Source: Thalassomonas viridans
Lineage (GTDB): Bacteria; Pseudomonadota; Gammaproteobacteria; Enterobacterales; Alteromonadaceae
Reading direction: 5' to 3'
NCBI RefSeq assembly: GCF_000948985.2
Contig: NZ_CP059733.1
Coordinates: 4,340,001-4,404,000, forward strand
Length of the DNA stretch: 64,000 nucleotides
Below, one piece after another: positions 44,637 to 49,979 of the stretch (its first letter is position 1; each line of letters starts with the position of its first letter). The notes under the pieces were generated by a model. That model saw only the letters and a program-made list of their open reading frames with translations, had not been told where the DNA came from and did not search any database. Made by a program: the position numbers and the translations under genes.

Positions 44637-47027
44637 CTATAAGGCGGCAATGGTTTGTTCATCCAGGGTTGCCTGGAAATCATTTTGCAGGGTCATCACG
44701 ATATCATCAGCTAATAACAGGGCTTTGGCATAGTCATAACGTTTATCATTAATATCCGCCTGGATCTGATAGGGATCAGCCACCGTTTGCTCAACTACTT
44801 CAATTTCAACGCTGATTTTACGCTGCAGATATTGGCTTAAGGCATGTTCCAGCTGCTGATGGGCGGCATCAGTTTTTAAATGCTTGGTGGATTGATCCAG
44901 CTTAAGCACCAGCAGTTCATCGGAAGAAGCTTCACTTATGGTTGCATGAATCGCCAATTGGCGTAAACGTCCGTTTAGCGCCATGGTATCTATCATATTT
45001 GCCCATTTATCCACCTGATTAGCCTTGCGGACATTGGCAGGATCAATCACGTTCGGCGTATAAGGAGCCTGGGGCAAAGTTTCCAGGGGAGGAATATCCG
45101 GCGCGGCATTGCCGCCATCAGCAACGGCTTCGGTTTCTGCAGGGGATTCATTTGTTGCCGGTTGACGCAAAGCTGCGTCATCAGGCTTTTTTCCCTTGCT
45201 CTCCTGTGCTTTTTTACGACTGCGCAACATATTCCGGGTGGCCAGCACCGCATCTACGGGTGTTTGGGCAACCGCCGTCGATGCTGGGGCATCATTTTGT
45301 GCTGCCGGGCTTTGTGGCTGTGCCTCTTGTTCCTGGGCATTTTGCATTTGGGGAGCTTGCGCTTGAAAAGCATCCTCTGCTAATGCTTGCGGTGGCGGCT
45401 CAGGGGCATTTTGCGGTGCAAAACCCTGGTTTGGGGAAAGGGGTGCTTCCGCCATCTGGCTCTGCTGTGCATTTAAATCATCCGGGCCCAAGTTGTCCTG
45501 TTCCGCCATATCTGCGCCGATTTGTGCCATGGACTCAGGCTCTGGAGCAGGTGTTTCTTGTGCTGCTGCACTTGCTGAGGGCATTTGACCGAGTGAGCGG
45601 GCAGACATTTCGATACTCTCCAGCTCGGCTGCCAGGCTCGCTTCGCTCGGGCCGCTGTTTGAAGAGGTTTGCTGTACAGAAACATCCATTTCCTGATCAG
45701 GACTATTTAAATCCGGTTCAAGGCTGTTGATCTCAGGCTCAAGGCTGCTTACTTCCGGTTCAAGACTGACCTCGGGCCCAAGGCTTTCTTGTGCGGGCTC
45801 GGGAATACTGGGAGTTTGCTTTTCCGACGTTGCTGCTGTGCTGCTGGCCACCTGGGTCTGAGGCAGCGCATGCCCGCTAAAATCAGGAACAGTAGAAGCC
45901 TCAGCTCTCGCCATTTCCCTGTCACTATCGACATCAGCTGCGGTTACCGGTTTAAAGGCAAGCAAACGCAATAGCACCATATCAAAAGCCGCCTGCTCGT
46001 CAAAGGCATAGGGCAGGTCTTTACGGCCGTTCAAGGCGATTTGATAATATAACTGCACGTCTTCGGGAGACATAAATTTGCTGAATTTCTCCAACAGAAC
46101 CTGATGCTCAGGGGCAAGATCAAAATGCTGTTTAACCACCTGTAACATGGCAATCTGGTGGAACAACTGGATCAATTCTGCCAGCAAACGGCTGTAATTT
46201 GGGGTATAAGAAGCGATTTCTAACGACAGGGCCATCAGCCCCCGGGAATCCTGCTTAAGCAGGGCCATAAGAATTTTATAAACCCAGTTTTGGTCTATGC
46301 CACCCAGCATTTGCTGCAAATGGGCTAAGGTAATGCTGCCCTGCCCTTTGGCAATCGCCTGATCGGTCAAGCTCAGGGAGTCGCGCATACTGCCGCGGGC
46401 AGCTTTTGCCAGCAGGGTTAAGGTACCGGGTTCGTGCGGAACCTCTTCCTGCTCCAGGATTTGCGTTAACTTTTCTTCAATCTGGCCGACGGTTAATGCT
46501 TTTAGATGAAATTGCAGGCACCGGGACAACACAGTTACCGGCAATTTTTGCGGATCTGTGGTCGCCAGAATAAATTTCACGTGCTGGGGCGGCTCTTCCA
46601 GGGTTTTCAGCAGGGCATTAAAACTGCTGCGCGAGAGCATATGCACCTCATCGATCAGGTAAACCTTATATCGGCCCCGGGTGGGTGCATATTGGACATT
46701 ATCGAGAATTTCCCGGGTATCATCGACTTTAGTCCGTGATGCCGCATCGATTTCAAGCAGGTCGATAAAACGTCCCTGGTCGATATCAACGCAAACATCA
46801 CATTGCCCGCAGGGCTCGGCACTGACCCCCTGCTCACAGTTAAGGCTTTTAGCAAAAATCCGCGCTATGGTTGTTTTGCCGACCCCCCGGGTGCCGGTAA
46901 ACAGGTAAGCATGGTGCAAACGCTGCTGAGACAAGGCATTCATCAGCACTGTCACTACGTGCTCTTGCCCCATCAACTCCTGAAATAACTTAGGTCGCCA
47001 TTTTCTTGCTAAAACCTGATAACTCAT
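44637..47027 (-). CDS. dnaX: DNA polymerase III tau subunit (with frameshifted short form)
   Basis: Clamp-loader ATPase and replisome organiser, 796 residues, well above E. coli tau (643). AAA+ motifs: Walker A GTRGVGKTT (44-52), a C4 zinc site in CEQGVSAEPCGQCDVC, DEVH, sensor 1 ATTDPQKLP. After domain III comes a long acidic Gln/Pro/Glu-rich linker (about 370-610) with repeated LEPE-type phrases, then an A-AAA-AAG slippery site after which domains IV-V follow (about 180 residues). A -1 shift would end translation after one extra Ala, giving a 615-residue gamma-like form. Order apt-dnaX-ybaB-recR is conserved. Confidence 0.96.
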   Translation of the reverse strand: MSYQVLARKWRPKLFQELMGQEHVVTVLMNALSQQRLHHAYLFTGTRGVGKTTIARIFAKSLNCEQGVSAEPCGQCDVCVDIDQGRFIDLLEIDAASRTKVDDTREILDNVQYAPTRGRYKVYLIDEVHMLSRSSFNALLKTLEEPPQHVKFILATTDPQKLPVTVLSRCLQFHLKALTVGQIEEKLTQILEQEEVPHEPGTLTLLAKAARGSMRDSLSLTDQAIAKGQGSITLAHLQQMLGGIDQNWVYKILMALLKQDSRGLMALSLEIASYTPNYSRLLAELIQLFHQIAMLQVVKQHFDLAPEHQVLLEKFSKFMSPEDVQLYYQIALNGRKDLPYAFDEQAAFDMVLLRLLAFKPVTAADVDSDREMARAEASTVPDFSGHALPQTQVASSTAATSEKQTPSIPEPAQESLGPEVSLEPEVSSLEPEINSLEPDLNSPDQEMDVSVQQTSSNSGPSEASLAAELESIEMSARSLGQMPSASAAAQETPAPEPESMAQIGADMAEQDNLGPDDLNAQQSQMAEAPLSPNQGFAPQNAPEPPPQALAEDAFQAQAPQMQNAQEQEAQPQSPAAQNDAPASTAVAQTPVDAVLATRNMLRSRKKAQESKGKKPDDAALRQPATNESPAETEAVADGGNAAPDIPPLETLPQAPYTPNVIDPANVRKANQVDKWANMIDTMALNGRLRQLAIHATISEASSDELLVLKLDQSTKHLKTDAAHQQLEHALSQYLQRKISVEIEVVEQTVADPYQIQADINDKRYDYAKALLLADDIVMTLQNDFQATLDEQTIAAL
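45163..45200 (-). promoter_or_regulatory. dnaX programmed -1 frameshift signal
   Basis: Slippery heptamer A-AAA-AAG in the correct phase (GGA AAA AAG) at 45192-45186. A perfect 7 bp hairpin TGACGCA-GCTT-TGCGTCA (45180-45163) starts 5 nt after it, and an AGGAG element lies about 8 nt upstream. In the -1 frame the next codons are GCC TGA, so the product ends at once. Slippery site, spacing, hairpin and internal ribosome site all match the E. coli dnaX signal. Confidence 0.9.
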
Positions 47028-47035
47028 ACCGGCCG

Positions 47036-47581
47036 TTATTCACCTTCGTACTGAAGTAAAGACAGAACAGATAAATCCAGATCCTTTAATCTGGCCTCCC
47101 CCCCCAAATCAGGCAGGGAAATAACAAAACCGGCTGCCGACACTTTAGCGCCCAGACGGCGGATAAGCTTAGTGGTGGCGTCTATGGTACCGCCGGTGGC
47201 AAGTAAGTCGTCGATGATAAGCACATTATCATCGGCAGTTAACGCATCCTGGTGTATTTCCAGGGTATCCTGGCCATATTCCAGCTGGTAATGCTCGGCG
47301 ATGGTTTCACGCGGCAGTTTGCCCGGCTTACGTACCGGAACAAAACCTACCCCCAGCGCCAGCGCCAGAGGGGCGCCAAAAAGAAAGCCCCTGGCTTCGG
47401 TGCCAACGACTTTAGTAAAACCTTTGTCTTTGAATTCATCTGCCATCAGCTTGATCGCTAATGCAAATGCTTCGGCATCATCTAAAATACCGGTAACATC
47501 ACGAAACATGACGCCTTCACAAGGATAATCAGGAATAGTGTGGACGGCGTTTTCGAGGAGTGATAATTGTTGTTCAGTCAT
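47036..47581 (-). CDS. apt: adenine phosphoribosyltransferase
   Basis: Purine salvage enzyme: adenine plus PRPP gives AMP. 181 residues. The PRPP-binding motif is [22 protein letters not shown], the adenine site in [14 protein letters not shown], and [30 protein letters not shown] core is intact. It is upstream of dnaX by only 8 bp, so apt and dnaX are likely cotranscribed. Confidence 0.97.
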
Positions 47582-47635: not shown

Positions 47636-48019
47636 TTATAGTGACTGACTTTGAGTATTTTGCATTGAAACTTGATTAATGACAAAAAACAACTCTTGTT
47701 CATCAACCGGCTTGGCAATTGAAAAAGTAAACATGGGATATTCGGGCAAGGCTTGCAGACTTTCCACTCCCTGAGTACTCATAAACAAAATCGGTGCGTC
47801 TTGCATCTCAGGATGCTGTCTTAGGTTTTTTACCAACACCAGGCCATTCATGACCGGCATCAGATGGTCGATAACAAACAAATCGAATTGCTGGCTCTGG
47901 GCTTTTTCAAAGCCGTCTAAACCGTTGCTGGCAGTAACCACCGTATGGCCGGCGTTTTCCAGTATAGCAGTCAGGCTGCTTAAGACATTTTGTTTGTCAT
48001 CGACAATTAATATTTTCAT
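47636..48019 (-). CDS. stand-alone receiver-domain protein (CheY-like)
   Basis: 127 residues consisting of a single response-regulator receiver domain. The acidic pair is in ILIVDDKQN, the phospho-acceptor Asp in LFVIDHLMPVMNGL (about residue 52), the conserved Thr/Ser in FMSTQG and the Lys in SIAKPVDEQ. It has no output domain, so it must act through protein contact or as a phosphate shuttle. No kinase is adjacent; the orphan TPR-PAS kinase at 36273 is 8.5 kb away and pairing would be speculation. ATG 48019. Confidence 0.88.
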   Translation of the reverse strand: MKILIVDDKQNVLSSLTAILENAGHTVVTASNGLDGFEKAQSQQFDLFVIDHLMPVMNGLVLVKNLRQHPEMQDAPILFMSTQGVESLQALPEYPMFTFSIAKPVDEQELFFVINQVSMQNTQSQSL

Positions 48020-48044: not shown

Positions 48045-48167
48045 TTATTGTAAAAAAGTATACCAGCCCATCAACATAGGTAATAAAGGCATACCAAACA
48101 GAACTACAAAAGCAATTAATAAGTGACGCAGAGATGCCGCGTCTTTGAAATTTTCATCGTGGGACAT
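48045..48167 (-). CDS. 40-residue single-span membrane protein
   Basis: A 41-codon frame beginning MSHDENFKDAASLRHLL with a hydrophobic span (LLIAFVVLFGMPLLPMLMG) and ending WYTFLQ. The charged N-terminus and single helix resemble small accessory subunits of respiratory complexes. The ribosome site is weak (TAAGAT). A near-perfect FNR box lies 72 bp upstream with a TAAAAT -10 candidate between, so anaerobic control is plausible. The stop lies 25 bp before the start of the receiver gene, and the two may be cotranscribed. Function unknown. Confidence 0.65.
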   Translation of the reverse strand: MSHDENFKDAASLRHLLIAFVVLFGMPLLPMLMGWYTFLQ

Positions 48168-48420: not shown

Positions 48421-48831
48421 TTAGCCGCCGCACTTAGCGGTTTTTTTACCTTCACCACATTTACCTTCACCACATTTGCCTGAAGATTTCTTGGCTTTTC
48501 CTTCACCACACTTACCTTCACCGCACTTGCCGGCAGCTTTGCTGGCTTTACCTTCGCCGCATTTGCCTTCACCGCACTTGCCGGAAGCTTTGCTGGCTTT
48601 GCCTTCGCCACATTTGCCTTCACCACACTTACCTGCGGCTTTCTTGGCTTTGCCTTCGCCGCACTTGCCTTCACCGCATTTGCCTTTGCCTTCTTCGCTG
48701 TGGCCGGCCACCGTCATTAACTCCTGAGCGGCAAAAGGATTAGATTCAGCCTTGGCCGGAGCCATGCTCAATGTAGAAAGCGCCATTAAGCCAAGGAATG
48801 CACCGATTGTCGATTTTTTAATTAAGTTCAT
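48421..48831 (-). CDS. EGKCG-repeat precursor peptide, HvfA-like (putative copper-binding RiPP)
   Basis: 136 residues from ATG 48831, with AGGAA 5 nt upstream; a longer frame from 48915 has no ribosome site. A Sec signal peptide ends SMAPAKA (residue 28). Five 17-residue repeats follow from about residue 50, each with GKCGEGKCGEGKA and a short Lys/Ala/Ser spacer, then AKCGG. There are 11 cysteines (52, 57, 69, 74, 86, 91, 103, 108, 120, 125, 134). EGKCG is the motif modified by DUF692/DUF2063 enzymes (HvfB/HvfC) to copper-binding thiooxazole or oxazolone-thioamide groups. Those enzymes are not encoded in this window. A plain metal-binding repeat protein is the alternative. Confidence 0.7.
   Translation of the reverse strand: MNLIKKSTIGAFLGLMALSTLSMAPAKAESNPFAAQELMTVAGHSEEGKGKCGEGKCGEGKAKKAAGKCGEGKCGEGKASKASGKCGEGKCGEGKASKAAGKCGEGKCGEGKAKKSSGKCGEGKCGEGKKTAKCGG
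48438..48684. repeat. 51 bp tandem repeats inside the EGKCG gene
   Basis: Five in-frame copies of a 51 bp unit (17 codons) at residues 50-132. Copies differ mostly by silent or Ala/Ser and Lys/Ser changes, so the peptide pattern appears to be under selection while the DNA drifts. Confidence 0.85.
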
Positions 48832-49025
48832 TTGAGTTCCTACTATATAAAGTGACCAGAGGCCGTTAATGTTATGTTTTTTATCTAGACCCAGAAAGGC
48901 AAATATAAATTTCATCCAGAATAAATTTATATTTTATTCCAGCTAAGCATGAAATATTTTCGCCATTTAGGCAAATAGCGATTACAATCGGGCCCATTTT
49001 TCATTTAGGGGCTTTTTTACCGCCG

Positions 49026-49979
49026 ATGACTGTCCAGGCCGAGCAACTTATCTTAGCACCCATGGAAGGCGTATTGGACGCACTGATGCGTGATCTTCTC
49101 ACCTCGATCAACCAGTTTGACTTATGTATAACTGAATTCATCCGGGTGGTGGACTCGCTGGTACCAAAACATGTGTTTTATAAAATCTGTCCCGAACTGC
49201 ATCAAAATGGCTTTACCTCCTCAGGCACTCCCATACGGGTGCAACTTTTAGGGCAAGAGCCGAATTGGCTGGCAGAAAACGCCATACGCGCTATTGAACT
49301 GGGTTCCCAGGGCATAGACTTGAACTTTGGCTGCCCGGCCAAAGCAGTGAATAAAAGTAGGGGCGGAGCAGTTTTACTAAAAACCCCTGAGCAGATATAC
49401 CAAATTATCAGCACAGTCAAACAGGCCCTTGGCGAACAAACCCAGGTCTCAGCAAAAATACGTTTAGGGTTTGAAGATACCAGCTTATTCAGGGAAATCG
49501 TGGACGCCGTCACCGGCGCCAATGCAGATTTACTGACGGTACACGCCAGGACCAAACTGCAAGGTTACAAGCCGCCGGCATACTGGCACTTTATCGGAGA
49601 AGCCAGTGATGTACATGCTATAGATATTATTGCCAACGGTGAAATTTGGAGCTTGCCGGATGCCGTCGAATGTATGCGGCAGGCAAAAACCAATAAACTG
49701 ATGCTCGGCAGGGGCTTACTCGCCCGCCCTAACCTGGCCAATGTGATCAAGTTCGGTGAGCAGCCGATGACCTGGCCACAGCTGTGCGACTTGCTCCACA
49801 GATACAGTGATTTGGAATTGCAGGGAGAAAAGAGTTTTTATTACTCCAGCCGCCTGAAGCAATGGCTCAGGTATTTAAAGCTGAATTACCCTCAGGCAAA
49901 TGCTTTCTTTGAGCAAATAAAAACCATGAAATGCAAAACGGAAATTACCCGGATCCTGCAGCAAATCCGCAGCTATTAA
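49026..49979 (+). CDS. dusC: tRNA-dihydrouridine(16) synthase
   Basis: FMN-dependent reduction of uridine 16 in the tRNA D-loop. 317 residues, aligned along its length with E. coli DusC (315). Diagnostic features: LAPMEGVLDALMRDLLT at the N-terminus, DLCITEFIRVVD, the catalytic cysteine in NFGCPAKAVNKSRGG, and IANGEIW followed by MLGRGLLARPNL. The ACCGCCG before ATG 49026 is a poor ribosome site; AGGGGC lies 12 nt upstream. Monocistronic, divergent from the EGKCG precursor gene. Confidence 0.95.
   Translation: MTVQAEQLILAPMEGVLDALMRDLLTSINQFDLCITEFIRVVDSLVPKHVFYKICPELHQNGFTSSGTPIRVQLLGQEPNWLAENAIRAIELGSQGIDLNFGCPAKAVNKSRGGAVLLKTPEQIYQIISTVKQALGEQTQVSAKIRLGFEDTSLFREIVDAVTGANADLLTVHARTKLQGYKPPAYWHFIGEASDVHAIDIIANGEIWSLPDAVECMRQAKTNKLMLGRGLLARPNLANVIKFGEQPMTWPQLCDLLHRYSDLELQGEKSFYYSSRLKQWLRYLKLNYPQANAFFEQIKTMKCKTEITRILQQIRSY

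Follow-up and report, generated by a model that had tools for sequence, protein, structure and literature searches.

The locus described here raises the question of what becomes of a peptide precursor when the enzymes that modify its kind are missing. According to the available text of three papers (PMC13097082, PMC13419390, PMC12538549), EGKCG precursors of the HvfA type are converted to copper-binding 5-thiooxazoles by HvfB, a DUF692 (MNIO) enzyme, together with HvfC, a DUF2063 protein. The window, meaning the whole stretch of 64,000 nucleotides of the Thalassomonas viridans genome that was analysed (C1:4340001-4404000 of host genome G000, which comprises 7.95 Mb in two contigs, C1 and C2), contains a gene of this type standing alone. 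A preliminary description of the window had put forward two readings, a precursor acted on in trans or an unmodified metal-binding relative; for stand-alone precursors in general, the accessible parts of PMC12452194 likewise discuss in-trans modification and no modification as possibilities. We think it probable, if well short of certain, that the gene is an orthologue of the HvfA/captophorin precursors from whose locus the HvfB-HvfC pair was lost once, and that it has been kept as an enzyme-free exported protein. The features on which the argument draws are as follows.

48421 to 48831, minus strand: gene for an HvfA-type EGKCG-repeat protein without HvfB/HvfC, 136 amino acids, 11 Cys (NF050137, 89.5 bits)
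48748 to 48831, minus strand: probable Sec signal peptide, residues 1-28, judged by eye
48445 to 48684, minus strand: five 17-residue repeats, each GKCGEGKCGEGK plus a spacer (translation, TRF)
48887 to 48914, minus strand: promoter-like element TGAAAT-N17-GGTCT, common to enzyme-linked EGKCG genes (motif search, block-shuffle control)
49026 to 49979, plus strand: dusC, 317 amino acids, divergent conserved neighbour
48045 to 48167, minus strand: m40, a 40-amino-acid membrane protein, downstream neighbour, found in several linked loci too, between DUF2063 and apt
47636 to 48019, minus strand: response-regulator receiver protein (PF00072), downstream neighbour
47036 to 47581, minus strand: apt, downstream; linked loci hold the DUF692-DUF2063 pair between EGKCG and apt
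44637 to 47027, minus strand: dnaX, downstream neighbour

From their sequences we take these neighbours to be dusC, apt and dnaX; a Pfam search of m40 gave no match. The EGKCG gene has an alternative start at an upstream in-frame ATG, which would give a protein of 164 amino acids. By eye its N-terminus resembles a signal peptide, with KK in the n-region, a hydrophobic core and AKA/ES. The motif GKCGEGKCGEGK occurs five times in the protein, starting at residues 50, 67, 84, 101 and 118 with a period of 17 amino acids, and TRF reports a period of 51, 4.7 copies and a score of 300 for the gene. Throughout the five repeats the first motif of the pair is A/S/K-GKCG, not EGKCG, and the cysteines inside each repeat are spaced CX4C. 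When the ten pairs among the five copies of the 12-residue motif are summed there are 48 synonymous differences and no amino-acid difference. The preliminary description was thus right that the DNA repeats vary while the peptide pattern is kept, and the signal peptide (by eye), the five 17-residue repeats and the 11 cysteines that it listed were all found again.

The protein scores 89.5 bits against the NCBIfam HvfA domain model NF050137 (KCGExKCG_twice; cut-off 19.5), which agrees with the HvfA-like identity proposed at the outset. Against the HvfA equivalog model NF050188 it reaches 57.6 bits (cut-off 95), and an enzyme-linked relative also falls short, at 73.7. The back-translated pattern GKCGEGKCG matched the host genome five times, always within this gene (reversed control, 0). 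A second EGKCG gene in the host was looked for and not found: this pattern and an EGKCG alignment each matched one place. The tblastn queries for the window were the host's own DUF692, DUF2063 and DoxX proteins plus the HvfB/HvfC pair of one relative; the best E was 0.13, that is, no relative of these proteins was found in the 64 kb. The DUF692 and DUF2063 genes that adjoin the precursor in a captophorin/oxazolin cluster are absent from this locus, and the gene is an orphan in the window, flanked by dusC and the 40-residue membrane protein, as first described.

Relatives were surveyed in 137 genomes of the family, each at least 95% complete and drawn evenly from a larger group. An EGKCG gene was present in 108 and a DUF692 gene in 104. 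After merging positions we counted 112 EGKCG genes, of which 64 are linked, having DUF692 no more than 2.5 kb away, and 48 are not. The 48 comprise 42 for which no HvfB-type enzyme was found (enzyme-less), two solo precursors of genus g36 (G038 and G114) with an HvfB above the cut-off about 58-59 kb away, and four at contig ends (G046, G053, G125, G166), which were left out of the enzyme-less count. Half of the 42 enzyme-less genomes (21) hold DUF692 genes, all below the HvfB cut-off (0/21 above it; linked controls, 3/3). DUF692 was not found in the other 21, nine of which are listed as one contig, and DUF2063 was found in 0/21 of these as against 7/7 other genomes tested. The PF05114 bit score was considered as an indicator of enzyme type but not adopted, since sub-HvfB enzymes (G027, G042, G116) overlap the score range of the linked ones.

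The order in the 32 of 64 linked regions that were annotated is EGKCG, DUF692, DUF2063, often m40, then apt and dnaX, with apt/dnaX present in 29 and dusC in 6. Among the 42 enzyme-less regions dusC is present in 34, apt/dnaX in 21, and at least one of the two in every region. Three genomes (G022, G037, G156) have dusC, EGKCG, DUF692, DUF2063, m40 and apt all together, and the neighbours recognised in enzyme-less loci (dusC, tpr, m40, the receiver protein, apt and dnaX) are common to linked loci. Because they share dusC and apt-dnaX as neighbours, the enzyme-less genes are orthologous to the linked ones and occupy one and the same place in the chromosome, minus the enzyme pair. A tblastn search of the 42 enzyme-less regions (approximately 10-12 kb each) with two linked enzymes detected no DUF692 remnant at E 1e-3.

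In rpoB trees of 78 and then 105 genomes, all 40 enzyme-less genomes that could be placed fall into one clade of 43, whose other three members have no EGKCG match; no linked genome lies inside it. The clade is supported at 0.99 and 0.98 by FastTree and at SH-aLRT 100 by a quick IQ-TREE run, with one change of state. The linked genomes in the rpoB tree are 31 of 63 from the family and 7 from other families, and 25 of the 29 family genomes without an EGKCG gene were placed, four not. Two enzyme-less genomes stand outside the trees: G058 has no rpoB match, and the match in G011 is truncated by the end of its contig. Linked genera surround the clade. The two FastTree trees disagree on which linked group is closest to it, and the deeper branches are weak, so that loss is preferred over gain on the grounds of parsimony and of the linked lineages around the clade. 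As sampled, the clade is the Colwelliaceae. It includes Thalassotalea loyana, Cognaticolwellia sediminilitoris, Colwellia hornerae, Colwellia sp. 75C3 and Colwellia echini; the assignment of Thalassotalea to this family was checked, and we take the other genera to belong to it as well. One contig titled Endozoicomonas sp. G2_1 (NZ_JAGHQT010000013.1, G004) groups with Colwelliaceae by both rpoB and EGKCG locus and is probably misnamed.

The preliminary description would have been refuted by a genome with no DUF692 or DUF2063 gene anywhere together with an unmodified peptide mass; the first part does not apply, since a genome-wide search found two DUF692-DUF2063 pairs, at C1:4745945 and C2:748313. 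The C1 pair lies 357 kb from the EGKCG gene beside a BufA2 precursor (NF050166, 138 bits), and its DUF692 enzyme scores 392 bits against the NCBIfam BufB model (cut-off 310) and 287 against the HvfB model (cut-off 360), the best HvfB score in the host genome, so that no HvfB-type enzyme was found there. The C2 pair lies beside a DUF2282 precursor and DoxX; its DUF692 enzyme stays under the BufB cut-off of 310 with 293.6 bits and reaches 172.9 for HvfB (cut-off 360). By these scores and by the precursors beside them both pairs are of the bufferin type, one BufB above the cut-off and the other nearest to BufB but below it. We also aligned the host enzymes with eight EGKCG-adjacent DUF692 enzymes, two rows of which are one identical gene. 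At the presumed FonB Arg15-Arg16 and Asp249-Phe250 sites the eight have LRRE or FRRE, and ERDF; the host enzymes have LRTD/ERDD and LRHA/EWDN, and both are without equivalents of the Arg16 and Phe250 of Lys-Cys enzymes. Because FonB single mutants at these sites remained active, as stated in the accessible part of PMC13097082, the missing residues mark enzyme type, not incapacity, and are not decisive against modification in trans.

The C1 row, at G000:C1:4745389-4747563 (L008:8389-10563), consists of a BufA2 bufferin precursor with two Cys-rich halves, BufB and DUF2063. The row on G000:C2 (L009:7861-10519) consists of a DUF2282 (Buf1) precursor, a BufB-like DUF692 gene, DUF2063 and DoxX, and the gene after it (L009:10574-11041) has, by eye, the look of a secreted YHS-type protein.

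Two features of the precursor track the enzyme. A motif [LM]xx[GA]Y that lies between the signal peptide and the core is present in 49/50 linked precursors (the exception, G089, is from another family) and in 0/38 enzyme-less ones. Glu1, the first Glu of each repeat, is in the majority in 51/52 precursors that are linked or have HvfB elsewhere, against 2/36 enzyme-less ones, and counted by pairs, Glu precedes the first motif in 274/280 of the former and 9/164 of the latter. Glu1 and LxxGY are both retained by the two solo precursors whose HvfB lies elsewhere; the window protein has neither. The linked set of 50 comprises 41 genomes of the family and 9 from other families of the order; G074 (cut by its contig) and G045 (a masked stretch) were left out, and the four g21 genes (G023, G105, G133, G157) belong to the 42 and not to the 38, SCGEG replacing KCG in them. 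GY was not seen in their translations. A Fisher's p of 1e-24 for LxxGY was set aside, since the enzyme-less genes descend from one event and the test ignores kinship. A further motif, 'GA' in the signal peptide (linked 44/48, enzyme-less 0/38; G025 and G007 are also left out of this count), was not used because it is equally missing from the two solo precursors with a distant HvfB. According to the available text of PMC13097082, FonBC in vitro still accepted precursors with Glu1 changed to Ala or with single Ala substitutions ahead of the core, so the loss of Glu1 alone does not prevent modification. An enrichment of Met and His, expected of plain copper proteins, was not seen in enzyme-less proteins compared with linked ones (p 0.64).

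Named GTDB loci were searched with enzyme-less proteins as queries; at least 294 matches were confirmed, and the best 80 of these 294 were examined. LxxGY occurs together with a DUF692 gene within 4 kb in 42 of these 80, and 19 have neither. The 19 are titled Colwellia, Cognaticolwellia, Thalassotalea or Litorilituus in 18 cases and Endozoicomonas sp. G2_1 in the nineteenth; since at least seven are already in the family count, the set is only partly independent. Within the same 80, nine loci have LxxGY but no nearby DUF692 gene, some at contig ends, and the strict LxxGY is absent from 10 of the 52 with DUF692 within 4 kb, the ten including several variants, LSSGF among them, and at least three loci whose N-terminus is unresolved. 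Six EGKCG loci outside Colwelliaceae (L405, L406, L409, L413, L414, L416) keep LxxGY and Glu1 with no DUF692 gene within 4 kb or before the contig end, and are candidates for true modification in trans.

The Cys repeats of the enzyme-less EGKCG proteins are under purifying selection. dN/dS is 0.008-0.072 within the genus of the window, 0.02-0.21 in six other enzyme-less genera and 0.02-0.12 in g27 and g52, whose sampled members lack DUF692; linked EGKCG genes give similar values (0.03-0.21), and all of these figures are rough, owing to high synonymous divergence, at which some pairs reach saturation and yield no value. Between the window gene and three congeners, the motif codons show 19-21 synonymous and no amino-acid changes. 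In the aligned Cys columns of seven enzyme-less genera, summed over pairs that are not independent and in an alignment that favours Cys on Cys, 9/465 are replaced, while 182 carry a synonymous TGT/TGC change. With the enzyme pair gone from the locus and the protein under such strong selection, the EGKCG protein probably works without that modification. In genus g21 (L125, L128, L137, L143) the orthologues have a repeat that now reads SCGEGMKHKDKK, with one Cys per repeat along with Met and His.

The promoter-like element is shared across the classes. TGAAAN-N16/17-GGTC lies upstream of 77/96 EGKCG genes, where block shuffling predicts 0.32, with a spacing of 17 in 68 genes and 16 in 9. By class it precedes 38/42 enzyme-less genes, 2/2 with HvfB elsewhere and 37/52 linked genes; it also precedes 29 among the best 80 of 294 named loci, against 8/1600 background windows. 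A stricter form matches once in the 64-kb window, at the EGKCG gene, and at three sites in the host genome: this gene, a DUF417 gene, and about 250 nt before a third gene, the counterpart of which in G001 is a Trans_reg_C regulator. The DUF417 membrane protein gene, weakly RclC-like (a partial match of 32.7 bits; cut-off 275), is preceded by the element in the host (G000:C1:5175138, L333) and in G029, with Pfam run on both. In G001 and G003 a similar site stands before a gene whose N-terminus resembles that of the DUF417 gene, which brings the total to 4/5 Colwelliaceae genomes searched. Other matches precede AhpC/TSA genes (G012, G029), rpoH (G029) and a thioredoxin-like gene (G054). Since the six-genome search gave 18 matches against 7 in the reversed control, single sites are weak and may be chance. 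The shape of TGAAAT-N17-GGTCT suggests an ECF-sigma promoter, and the EGKCG and DUF417 genes possibly belong to a shared stress regulon.

Modification in trans by one of the host's two bufferin-type pairs is unlikely. The pairs do exist, the available text of PMC12452194 suggests this route as a possibility for stand-alone precursors, and genus g36 has its two solo precursors with a distant HvfB; yet those two precursors retain the features that the window protein lacks, the host enzymes, at 287 and 173 bits, do not reach the HvfB cut-off and have no Arg16/Phe250 equivalents, and relatives in which no DUF692 gene was found keep the same EGKCG gene. As both pairs are bufferin-type and 21 of the 42 enzyme-less genomes have no DUF692 or DUF2063 gene found, this half of the original proposal is disfavoured, and the other half, an unmodified metal-binding relative, would fit far better. 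Still less credit goes to an enzyme outside DUF692 acting on the cysteines of the Colwelliaceae protein. The well-kept GKCGEGKCGE pattern could be an enzyme's motif, but every neighbour recognised in the enzyme-less loci is common to linked loci. It is most improbable that the gene is merely decaying after the loss of its pathway. In favour of decay are the missing enzyme pair, the changed g21 motif and the three of the 43 clade genomes in the tree that have no EGKCG match; dN/dS well below 1, the retained Cys columns and the presence of the gene in 40 of the 43 speak against it. For the 21 genomes in which no DUF692 gene was found there is strong reason to think that the protein is unmodified, and descent and sequence suggest the same for the window genome.

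Following loss of the HvfB-HvfC pair from the locus, once, on the stem of the Colwelliaceae as sampled, the EGKCG protein would have been kept as a plain exported protein. Envelope or oxidative stress would switch on its synthesis from the ECF-sigma-like promoter; after export by Sec it would act through its 11 free thiols, spaced CX4C in each repeat. From family descent and ligands we infer that its most likely role is that of a periplasmic Cu(I) or soft-metal buffer in the style of a metallothionein, possibly with a sacrificial thiol function too. The main alternative is that the protein does not bind metal but serves chiefly in the periplasm as a sacrificial thiol that protects against reactive chlorine or peroxide; it deserves about one chance in four. 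The element before DUF417 genes in most of the Colwelliaceae searched, and before the AhpC/TSA, rpoH and thioredoxin-like genes, is in its favour; against it, those single sites may be chance given the control, and the RclC match is partial.

An ex-RiPP precursor is thus the history that we rather favour: after one ancient enzyme loss, the Colwelliaceae would have kept the protein, the locus and the stress promoter, dropped the recognition motif and come to use the bare cysteines. If so, EGKCG repeats are useful without thiooxazole, and the clade offers a natural knock-out experiment on what thiooxazole contributes to EGKCG proteins. The database names of the type 'oxazolone/thioamide-modified metallophore' would then be wrong for this clade. 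Among the UniRef matches listed, two Colwellia proteins (P0030, P0060) are named 'HvfA family oxazolone/thioamide...', and P0060 corresponds to G115, a genome where DUF692 and DUF2063 were not found; a modification should not be named from the precursor alone. Setting the features that track the enzyme (LxxGY, Glu1) apart from those independent of it (Cys repeats, promoter) would also yield a testable recognition motif for HvfB/HvfC.

Several known systems resemble this locus in part. The HvfA/oxazolin of the hvf operon, as described in the available text of PMC13419390, has a Sec signal, as the window protein seems by eye to have, and shares its paired EGKCG core and Cys-rich character, but its operon holds hvfB, hvfC and hvfX, none of which is near the window gene. 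Fontiphorin FonA and the captophorins (PMC13097082, accessible part) share the EGKCG repeats of the Lys-Cys type; FonA is modified to 5-thiooxazole by FonBC, whereas an HvfB-type pair was not found in the host genome. The bulbicupramide precursor MmrA of Microbulbifer, also from marine Gammaproteobacteria, has EGKCG pairs in cassettes and, in the available part of PMC12538549, adjoins mmrB-mmrC, unlike the window gene, which has no such pair. Buf_EGKCG/oxazolin type 1 (Antoine 2025, PMC12452194) likewise has 17-residue repeats of two motifs each; the available text already reports this repeat type and stand-alone genes, with 67 of 2583 EGKCG genomes lacking an MNIO. Stand-alone genes are called rare there, whereas here they extend to a whole clade, are syntenic and lack the recognition-like features. 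Bufferins of both kinds, BufA1 and BufA2, occur in the host genome with their own enzymes, and their precursor sequences and motifs differ from EGKCG. Metallothioneins and Csp copper-storage proteins are small proteins with many unmodified cysteines, as the window protein probably is too, metallothioneins acting in another compartment than the putatively exported window protein. A literature search, with subscription papers mostly outside its reach, found no published account of the enzyme-less state in Colwelliaceae. An HvfA-type EGKCG protein with 17-residue repeats is a known kind of protein; what is new is its history.
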